A DNA stretch of 64,000 nucleotides from Isosphaeraceae bacterium (GTDB lineage: Bacteria > Planctomycetota > Planctomycetia > Isosphaerales > Isosphaeraceae). How positions within the stretch are numbered: the stretch's first letter is position 1; every line of letters starts with the position of its first letter. The position numbers and the translations under genes are program-made. This document shows, piece after piece, positions 34,743 to 36,660 of the stretch. The stretch is from assembly GCA_025356475.1 (NCBI GenBank), contig JANXSX010000150.1:1-64000 (forward strand). Reading direction: 5' to 3'. The notes beneath the pieces are model-generated. The model had not been told where the DNA came from. It did not search any database and saw only the letters and a list, made by a program, of their open reading frames with translations.

Positions 34743-34761
34743 GGGCTTCGAAATCACATAA

Positions 34762-34870
34762 GCCGACCATGATTGAAAACGTCGACCGGCCACCTCTCCC
34801 GTAGCCGCTTCCGCAATCAATCATGGCCGGCCTAAGACGCAGGCGGTAAGTCTGCCGGGCGACTCACCGC
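34762..34870 (+). ncRNA. Structured-RNA candidate, unit A
   Basis: A 15-position outer stem pairs 34762-34776 with 34817-34831 (one mismatch). Inside it a small hairpin, GGCCAC/GTAGCC, presents the loop CTCTCCC (34794-34800). A second hairpin follows, GCGGTAAGTC (34843-34852) with GACTCACCGC (34861-34870). Unit B, about 130 nt downstream, shares the 15-base core ACCTCTCCCGTAGCC and the layout but has different paired bases in the outer stem. Strand is assumed from the neighbours and the downstream terminator. A DNA repeat rather than an RNA is possible. Confidence 0.5.
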
Positions 34871-34891
34871 AATTCTAACTCTGAAACTAAA

Positions 34892-34992
34892 CCTGCCAGG
34901 ATCGTCAGTCTCGGCGAGCTACCTCTCCCGTAGCCACTCTGAAAATCGATCCTGACAGGCTTAAGTCTGCGGATGACCTATGGAGGTCACCG
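34892..34992 (+). ncRNA. Structured-RNA candidate, unit B
   Basis: The outer stem pairs 34892-34904 with 34947-34959 (13 positions, one mismatch). The inner hairpin GCTAC/GTAGC carries the same CTCTCCC loop (34923-34929). A second hairpin pairs CGGATGACC (34970-34978) with GGTCACCG (34985-34992), with one bulged A. TAAGTCTGC occurs here (34962-34970), in unit A (34847-34855) and once more at 35137-35145. The stems differ in sequence from unit A yet keep pairing, which favours selection on structure. Confidence 0.5.
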
Positions 34993-35000
34993 TATGAGAC

Positions 35001-35041
35001 AGGGCGAGCGGGGGGGTCGTGCGAGGCAACCCGCTCGCCCT
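35001..35041 (+). terminator. Strong hairpin closing the RNA-like region
   Basis: A perfect 12-bp stem pairs AGGGCGAGCGGG with CCCGCTCGCCCT around a 17-nt loop, followed by only a short T run. It probably ends transcription from the phosphoesterase gene or the RNA units. The weak T-tract leaves intrinsic termination uncertain. Confidence 0.6.
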
Positions 35042-35415
35042 TTGGCGGTAAGTAAAACTGGACCGAAGTCCCGGATCACCGTCGCCATTGGGGTGGCTCA
35101 GTTCAGGACCATTTCCTGAACGTATATTAGTGCGACTAAGTCTGCAACTGAATGATCTCTTCACTCACATTGCATCTCGTCATCAACGCTTTACACAGAA
35201 AGCATGAGGCGTGCCAAAGCCCGGCGTACCTGACGTAAGAATTCTGGAATCACGACTCAAAGTCTTTGCAAAAAACAACTTAGACGCGATAGAATTTTCC
35301 ACTGCCGGTCGTGAAGGCCTGGGAGTCGACCACTTCGCCCTCAGGTGTACCCCCCAAAGGGTCGAAAAACCGTGCATTGCTGCCCGCAGAATGTGCATGT
35401 CGAGGAATTTTTGGA
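35042..35415. other. Intergenic region with a short perfect hairpin
   Basis: I see no gene here. A perfect 8-bp hairpin, GTTCAGGA-CCATT-TCCTGAAC, lies at 35101-35121, followed by a third TAAGTCTGC. It may be a decayed third unit of the structured repeats. The ribosome-binding site AGGAA of the next gene is at the right end. Confidence 0.4.
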
Positions 35416-36660
35416 ATGACCTTGTCACGTACGCTTCAAGATCCGCTCGCAAAGCTTCAATTGGCATTGGCCGATCTTCACGAGGCGACAGCGAATCGTG
35501 CGCGGGTTGAGACTTGGTTGGACGCGGAACTCGACGAGGGTGGGGTTCCTCGGACCTTACCGATTCCTCGATGGGCGGAGGCATTGGCCCTCTTGAGCAA
35601 GGCCAAGAGCGCCGACCCAAGCTGGATTCTCGGGCACGAGGATCGTGTGACGTCCTTCGTAAAAGCGTGCCTTCGATTCGCACGCCCTGATGGTTCGATG
35701 TGTTTTCGAGCCACACCACTGAAGAGCGACATGCTTGGTCGATGTGCTCTCCATCTCAGTAATGATCCGGGAGTCGCACGCGTTGTGGCCTGGTGGTTCC
35801 CCAAACTTGCCGAGGACGACGATGACCTGGGGGCTCCGTTCCTTCCTGCCGGTGGTGGGAATGAACTTCCTCTAGCTTGTCTGCGATCCGACTGGACCAA
35901 ACGAGGTGAGTGGTTGGCGGTCGATGCGCGTTCCAAGGGTTCGGTGACCCAAGTTGAGCTGGGTTTGAATGGCCAGCCTTGGCTCGGCTCCGACTGGCGA
36001 ACAGGCGAGGATCTTCGCGCGGGAGTCGCCCAGCCCCAGCCGATCTATTGGTCGACCCGGTCGATGGCCGACGTTTTCGAGTGGTCGGTCAAGGTCGGTC
36101 CGACCAAAGTGACCCGCACGGTCGTCCTGCTCCGTGGTCAAAAATTAGCCTTGCTGGCCGAGCAACAGGACGGATTGGCGAGCCCAGGCTGTTGGTCGAT
36201 CGGCCTTGAAGCTGGCCTCGAACCGCGGGCCTTCGCAGAGCATGGAGGGCTACGGCTCGACGCTTCTGGATCGCGAGGTTCCGCCCTGGCGATCCCACTC
36301 GGCGCTGCCAGCCAGCCCGGCAAGACCCTGAGCAGTTCCGATGGAAAACTCATTCTGCAAGCCACCGACCAAGGTCAACGCCGTTGGTTGCCGCTCTTGA
36401 TGTCTTGGGATGGGTTGAGGCACAAGAAGGCAATGACCTGGCGAAGATTGACGGTGGCGGAGAAGTCGAAGGCGGTTCCTTCCGATGTCGCCTTCGCTGC
36501 GCGAATCTCCTTCGGTCGCGATGAAACCTTGGTTGTTTACCGAAGCCTCGGTCCTCCCGCGCTGAGGTCGTTCCTCGGCCACCAGACCAATGCCCGCTTT
36601 GTGCTTGGCTGGTTTAATGCCGAGGGGAACATTCAACCGATCGTGACGATTAACGCTTAA
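35416..36660 (+). CDS. Unrecognised 414-residue protein
   Basis: I do not recognise this protein. It starts with a helical segment (SRTLQDPLAKLQLALADLHEA), and contains a Trp-rich helical part (about 75-140), then a long beta-rich half (about 170-410) with GEWLAVDARSKGSVTQVELGLNGQPWLGSDW and RKGQ-like strands. The second half is a little like the beta domain of polysaccharide-lyase or heparinase-type proteins, but no catalytic motif supports that. No signal peptide is seen. AGGAA 9 nt before the ATG fixes the start; the frame is open 105 nt upstream. The gene stands alone. Confidence 0.7.
   Translation: MTLSRTLQDPLAKLQLALADLHEATANRARVETWLDAELDEGGVPRTLPIPRWAEALALLSKAKSADPSWILGHEDRVTSFVKACLRFARPDGSMCFRATPLKSDMLGRCALHLSNDPGVARVVAWWFPKLAEDDDDLGAPFLPAGGGNELPLACLRSDWTKRGEWLAVDARSKGSVTQVELGLNGQPWLGSDWRTGEDLRAGVAQPQPIYWSTRSMADVFEWSVKVGPTKVTRTVVLLRGQKLALLAEQQDGLASPGCWSIGLEAGLEPRAFAEHGGLRLDASGSRGSALAIPLGAASQPGKTLSSSDGKLILQATDQGQRRWLPLLMSWDGLRHKKAMTWRRLTVAEKSKAVPSDVAFAARISFGRDETLVVYRSLGPPALRSFLGHQTNARFVLGWFNAEGNIQPIVTINA

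Follow-up and report, generated by a model that had tools for sequence, protein, structure and literature searches.

The question raised by this locus is whether the window, the whole stretch of 64,000 nucleotides that was analysed, contains an RNA gene at 34762–35041, where two tandem hairpin units with identical loops had been described from the sequence, and, if so, which strand carries it, how far it extends and what its RNA might do.

Identification of the GGGAGAGG-loop RNA

The locus is a previously uncatalogued structured RNA gene that occurs across the Isosphaeraceae, and the two units form its 3' half. We infer from the sequence evidence described below that this RNA, referred to here as the GGGAGAGG-loop RNA, is transcribed from the minus strand of the window. 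The preliminary description correctly recognised two structured units with a shared core and an identical inner loop, both of which fold far better than shuffled sequence, but the limits given for the element were too narrow, since it reaches to about 35100 and includes hairpin P1 and a 5' lead. The 12-bp terminator-like hairpin that had been placed after the units does not terminate them; it is P2 (35001–35041), which on the minus strand precedes them and shows the highest conservation within the RNA. From 5' to 3' on that strand, a CCACCCC lead is followed by P1, P2, a variable P3 and long hairpins with an (N)GGGAGAGG loop (G-loop hairpins). The features are as follows.

34757–35100, minus strand: whole predicted RNA, about 340 nt, with its 5' end near 35100 and its 3' end near 34757
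35090–35098, minus strand: conserved 5' lead (A)GCCACCCC (alignment A2)
35043–35087, minus strand: hairpin P1, closing stem TGGCG/CGCCA and a variable upper stem (pairing and covariation)
35001–35041, minus strand: hairpin P2, 12-bp stem with GGGCGAGCGGG/CCCGCTCGCCC (pairing and covariation)
35016–35028, minus strand: P2 loop GCCUCGCACGACC, 13 nt, near-invariant (alignment A2)
34970–34992, minus strand: variable hairpin P3 (fold, z −2.8; sequence unconserved)
34886–34965, minus strand: first G-loop hairpin, the second unit of the preliminary description, with an 18-bp outer stem and an inner stem (fold; R2 match of 48.9 bits)
34922–34930, minus strand: invariant loop CGGGAGAGG of the first G-loop hairpin (alignment A5 and R2-recovered hairpins)
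34843–34870, minus strand: variable hairpin separating the two G-loop hairpins (fold, z −3.1)
34757–34836, minus strand: second, 3'-terminal G-loop hairpin, the first unit of the preliminary description (fold, z −8.4; R2 match of 51.1 bits; weak U-run)
34793–34801, minus strand: invariant loop CGGGAGAGG of the second G-loop hairpin (alignment A5 and R2-recovered hairpins)

The P1–P2 covariance model (R1) matched 34991–35100 on the minus strand with an E value of 1.9e-22, this sequence belonging to the model's own training set, and the G-loop hairpin model (R2) matched twice. Among relatives, conservation ended abruptly upstream of the 5' lead. The two units have ACCTCTCCCGTAGCC in common (at 34792 and 34921), and the only two copies of CTCTCCCGTAGCC in the genome of 5.9 Mb lie within the units (34762–34960). 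The many genome-wide copies expected of a dispersed repeat were not found. The absence of a named family was confirmed by Rfam 15, which at gathering score returned only tRNA from either strand of the window; a local Rfam scan (E up to 5), together with 20 relatives (E up to 1), yielded nothing near the gathering score.

Strand of the RNA

On either strand, the fold of each unit was better than those of nearly all of 200 shuffles. The plus-strand folds of the two units had energies of −29.1 and −30.0 kcal/mol (z −5.0 and −4.6) and interrupted stems, and the minus-strand folds had energies of −48.2 and −40.8 kcal/mol (z −8.4 and −5.4) and an unbroken 18-bp outer stem. For the longer element, the 318-nt plus strand (34743–35060) gave −130.7 kcal/mol (z −5.5), and the 342-nt minus strand (34757–35098) gave −167.6 kcal/mol (z −7.1), with none of 100 shuffles folding as well. 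The comparison with shuffled sequence that had been proposed as a check thus came out in favour of a structured RNA.

Homologous hairpins showed the same preference. The minus strand folded better in 42 of 45 loop hairpins, with mean energies of −46.6 (minus) and −35.0 (plus), and these hairpins contained 197 G-U pairs on the minus strand versus 36 on the plus strand. A run of at least four U followed 27 of the 45 hairpins on the minus strand, whereas its mirror image, an A-run, accompanied none of the 45; the U-run at the window's own 3' hairpin is poor. The plus-strand alignment of the core contained A.C mismatches and almost no G-U pairs in the P2 stem, the same positions being G-U on the minus strand, and alignment A1, in which the core was read on the plus strand, was dropped on account of these mismatches. 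P1 was nearly strand-neutral, and both P2 alone and P1–P2 alone folded better on the plus strand, which for P2 is due to its G-rich loop on that strand. Since the P1 and P2 energies are neutral or favour plus, the minus strand was assigned from the loop hairpins, from the U-runs and from the asymmetry of G-U pairs in P2.

Because folding favours the minus strand, the functional loop is probably (N)GGGAGAGG rather than CTCTCCC, which was a reading of the wrong strand. The proposal that C-rich loops pair with GGGAGAG-type ribosome-binding sites depended on the plus strand and falls with it, the loop on the supported strand being GGGAGAGG.

In most relatives, a weak −10-like ACTTNTAAG immediately precedes the conserved block when the minus strand is read, with a poor match in the window itself, and no conserved −35 element was found upstream of the RNA among relatives. 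At seven loci (L029, L032, L034, L035, L036, L037 and L040), the U-run 3' of the G-loop hairpin was often followed by TGCGC or ATGCGCC.

Covariation of the stems and invariance of the loops

When 58 related genomes were searched at the DNA level, the highest conservation fell not on the units but on approximately 34992–35100, which comprises the P2 hairpin and the stretch beyond it and reaches up to 100% identity over 53 bases in relatives. Most of the loci fetched shared one anatomy, with at least one hairpin carrying CCTCTCCC on the plus strand (GGGAGAGG on the minus strand), a variable hairpin and the conserved core.

In P1–P2, 98.7% of cells were paired and 10 of 17 pairs showed two-sided changes; none of 500 shuffles was as good, and slid controls paired 46–57% of cells. 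The P2 stem accounted for most of these changes (8 of 12 pairs, 99.8% of cells paired), and two of the five closing pairs of P1 changed on both sides, with 96% of cells paired. Most columns of the P2 loop were identical across all 40 aligned cores (A2), which were gathered by a motif within that loop; at one locus (L123) the loop has diverged.

The inner stem of the G-loop hairpin showed two-sided changes in all nine pairs, with 91.2% of cells paired (slid controls, 27–59%). The compensatory variation that had been noted in the differing outer stems of the two units was borne out by the folds of the units. GGGAGAGG was identical in 40 of 40 rows of alignment A5, although the hairpins were chosen by the GGGAGAGG motif, so that the loop invariance in this alignment is partly by construction. 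R2, which can tolerate loop changes even though it rewards a loop match, recovered the exact GGGAGAGG loop beside the core with the diverged P2 loop (L123) and also in genus g5 (L120 and L121), where no core was detectable. Conserved structure with covariation, a criterion of trans-acting bacterial sRNAs, was thus found for this RNA.

Distribution within the Isosphaeraceae

R1 was built from 40 training sequences, to which most of the matched copies belong, and it matched at E 1e-5 or better in 39 of 45 family genomes, including 24 of the 26 near-complete ones, and in 20 of 21 genera. The covariance search of planctomycete genomes that had been suggested for the units thus returned covarying homologues. 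The organisms with the RNA include Paludisphaera soli, Aquisphaera insulae, Tautonia sociabilis, a Singulisphaera sp. and other Isosphaeraceae. The RNA is usually single-copy per genome, and strong R2 matches lay only beside its core, two of them in the window's genome. The number of G-loop hairpins per RNA ranged from one to seven and was usually one to three, mostly one; the largest arrays had seven (L075), five (L076) and four (L107).

In the rest of the phylum, for which 293 genomes were searched, R1 found nothing convincing, its four marginal matches having E values of 0.003–0.009. R2 gave two marginal matches outside the family (E 0.001–0.003), which were taken as chance. A long hairpin with an exact AGGGAGAGG loop was seen in another planctomycete family (genome G041, contig C130, 34412–34486; E 0.0015), and it is either a chance match or a distant relative. 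Matches to the exact pattern in Denitromonas, Burkholderia, Streptomyces, Actinoalloteichus and two Betaproteobacteria were rejected as chance, as they lay inside long open frames without G-loops, and so was a match in genome G050 (L059), where the rest of the RNA was absent. The P2 motif had no match in IMG/VR viral contigs. On the reading favoured below, the RNA family has been inherited vertically within the Isosphaeraceae.

Genomic setting

The gene upstream of the RNA in the window is divergent from it.

35416–36660, plus strand: divergent neighbour gene, about 400 aa, with a predicted heparinase II/III-like fold, adjoining the RNA in all 22 examined genomes that possess the gene

It lies on the 5' side of the RNA in every one of the 22 family genomes that possess it. 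The window's protein had no Pfam or NCBIfam match; its AlphaFold model (pLDDT 87.7) resembled HepC/heparinase III lyases in Foldseek (best E 7.6e-12) but is shorter, and it is predicted to represent an unnamed family with a heparinase II/III-like fold. In many genomes, YggS, DUF167 and AroA come after the divergent gene. The RNA persists where the divergent gene is absent (L105, G007 and G025), and at L105, where that gene was not found, it still precedes YggS.

The 3' side of the RNA varies. The phosphoesterase gene directly before the units in the window, as stated in the preliminary description, is no conserved neighbour, and in most relatives it is not adjacent to the RNA. No conserved same-strand gene was found downstream on the minus strand, the open frames differing from locus to locus in their strand, size and distance, which makes a role as a minus-strand cis leader or riboswitch unlikely. 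As the upstream neighbour is divergent, the RNA would need a promoter of its own. In G007 and G025, GC-rich repeat-like stretches bearing CCTCTCCC were seen near the phosphoesterase locus (L005 and L008) and are probably unrelated.

Core-only copies

At the examined loci, either a hairpin bearing the exact loop came after the core or the core had no loop copy within reach. The latter was the case for one of the two cores of L060 and for L038, L045, L047, L048 and L055, which are core-only copies consisting of P1–P2 without G-loop hairpins and with other 3' ends. In L048 and L055 the core-only copies form tandems with a spacing of 121 bp.

In G008 and G026, the copy that is linked to the gene and bears G-loops carries a changed P2 loop, CCUUCGCACGACGA, while the canonical loop persists in the tandem core-only copies. 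The same split between copies was found in G009, in which the P2 loop of the G-loop copy has strongly diverged, while in G014 the canonical P2 loop is present in both kinds of copy. These sequences suggest that the P2 loop and the G-loops may serve separable functions. A kissing contact between CCUC of the P2 loop and GAGG of the G-loop is possible in most copies; it was rejected, because it is broken in L123 and core-only copies retain CCUC without a G-loop.

Possible function

We put about an even chance on the GGGAGAGG-loop RNA representing a new small RNA family, free-standing and highly structured, that acts in trans through two recognition modules. Such an RNA would be made from its own unit, divergently from the heparinase-fold gene, and would have at its 3' end a terminator-like hairpin or several of them in tandem. 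One module would be the P2 loop GCCUCGCACGACC; the other, separable from it, would consist of the (N)GGGAGAGG loops on the 3' hairpins. Since the stems change freely, the loops are fixed and the loop number ranges from one to seven, the G-loops most likely serve as repeated binding sites. Their sequence-specific partner would most plausibly be an RNA-binding protein, which they would titrate or recruit.

A protein reader would be our first choice over base pairing, and antisense action is the main rival. As a base-pairing sRNA, for which we see a real but minor likelihood, the RNA would use the GGGAGAGG loops, the P2 loop or both as seeds for CU-rich (CCUCUCCC-like) or GGUCGUGCGAGG-like mRNA sites. 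Loops that are single-stranded and invariant while their stems change, the repetition of the identical loop and a terminator-like 3' end are all compatible with this. Several genomes contained more copies of ACCTCTCCC than of the reversed control (83 versus 50 in G000 and 201 versus 63 in G025, although CCTCTCCC repeats exist at least in the G025 group and may inflate the CCTCTCCC counts in G025). However, the excess is not general, with none or a deficit in G019 and G010 and almost none in G011; the complement of the P2 loop was not enriched over its reversed control in 12 genomes, and a purine-rich seed is unlike the usual logic of C-rich seeds. Pairing of either loop with 16S rRNA gave nothing consistent across species. 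A special case of the trans-acting reading, a CsrB/RsmZ-like sponge for CsrA-family proteins, would account for the GGA in every G-loop, the variable array size and the many CsrA paralogues, but we regard it as unlikely, as the loop size, the absent ACA, the very stable stems and the few GGA loops per RNA depart from described sites and CsrA leaves the invariance of the trailing GAGG unexplained.

The hairpins are terminator-like, and in the window the RNA is convergent with the phosphoesterase gene, as would suit terminators combined with a cis element; this is quite improbable, because ordinary terminators keep neither an invariant 8-nt loop nor, upstream, a core whose loop is itself invariant, and termination needs no arrays of up to seven hairpins. 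Read on the plus strand, the element lies upstream of the heparinase-fold gene and is co-oriented with it in 22 of 22 genomes and could be its riboswitch-like 5' leader. We give this little credence, however, as the hairpin energies, the G-U asymmetry and the U-runs favour minus, the stretch beyond the conserved block toward the heparinase-fold gene is unconserved, and the RNA is kept in the three cases without that gene. The tandem arrangement of the units would also fit a mobile element, a repeat or chance structure, an explanation made extremely improbable by the restriction of strong R2 matches to sites beside the core, the lack of many dispersed copies, the conserved address beside the divergent gene and YggS, and the covariation.

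If the trans-acting reading is developed further, the RNA may be a family-specific, dosage-tunable hub, in which the 3' terminator hairpin of a conserved core RNA has been amplified to as many as seven identical GGGAGAGG loops. A dedicated regulatory protein, perhaps one of the CsrA paralogues binding at a non-canonical site, would be titrated by these loops, and the P2 loop would provide an independent second function. We offer this speculatively and with low confidence; were it true, the P2 function could be separated into RNAs of its own. The RNA would be family-wide, mostly confined to a single locus and present in cultured genera (Tautonia, Paludisphaera and Aquisphaera). Its strand is supported, its boundaries are approximately defined, and its two invariant loops can be mutated independently of each other. 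This makes it possible to ask by experiment what reads the GGGAGAGG loops and why their number ranges from one to seven.

Comparison with known systems

In the papers searched on planctomycete sRNAs, a regulatory RNA of such form was not found. The 6C RNA of Actinobacteria has two adjacent hairpins with identical, homogeneous C-rich loops, and the adjacent identical-loop hairpins described here would resemble it on the plus-strand reading. On the supported strand, however, the GGGAGAGG-loop RNA has G/A-rich loops, and it comes from another phylum and has no Rfam match. CcsR/'cuckoo' sRNAs, RNAIII and similar RNAs target Shine-Dalgarno-like sites with C-rich loops. They share with the GGGAGAGG-loop RNA the use of repeated invariant loops as putative recognition sites, whereas the GGGAGAGG loop itself resembles a Shine-Dalgarno-like site. 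The Rhodopirellula-1 motif is a structured RNA from Proteobacteria and Planctomycetes that is listed with no accession beside it (PMC2864571); the comparison with it extends to that listing, and the Rfam scan may not cover it.

CsrB/RsmZ are free-standing RNAs with repeated GGA hairpin loops; the GGGAGAGG-loop RNA likewise has GGA in each G-loop, with mostly one and up to seven such loops per RNA, and CsrA-family genes were found in 44 of 44 genomes tested, with 2 to 17 matches each and seven in the window's genome. The CsrA SELEX consensus RUACARGGAUGU was presented mostly in six-nucleotide loops on weak stems (PMC7652899). In contrast to these hexaloops, the GGGAGAGG loops are 7–9 nt long and lack ACA, and the outer stem in the window has 18 bp. 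The GGGAGAGG-loop RNA also has usually one to three loops instead of many, contains the invariant P2 module in addition, and matches no Rfam family. Since loop size, the missing ACA, the very stable stems and the low site number differ from described CsrA sites, we do not file the GGGAGAGG-loop RNA as CsrB-type, and CsrA would fit only imperfectly as the reader of its loops.
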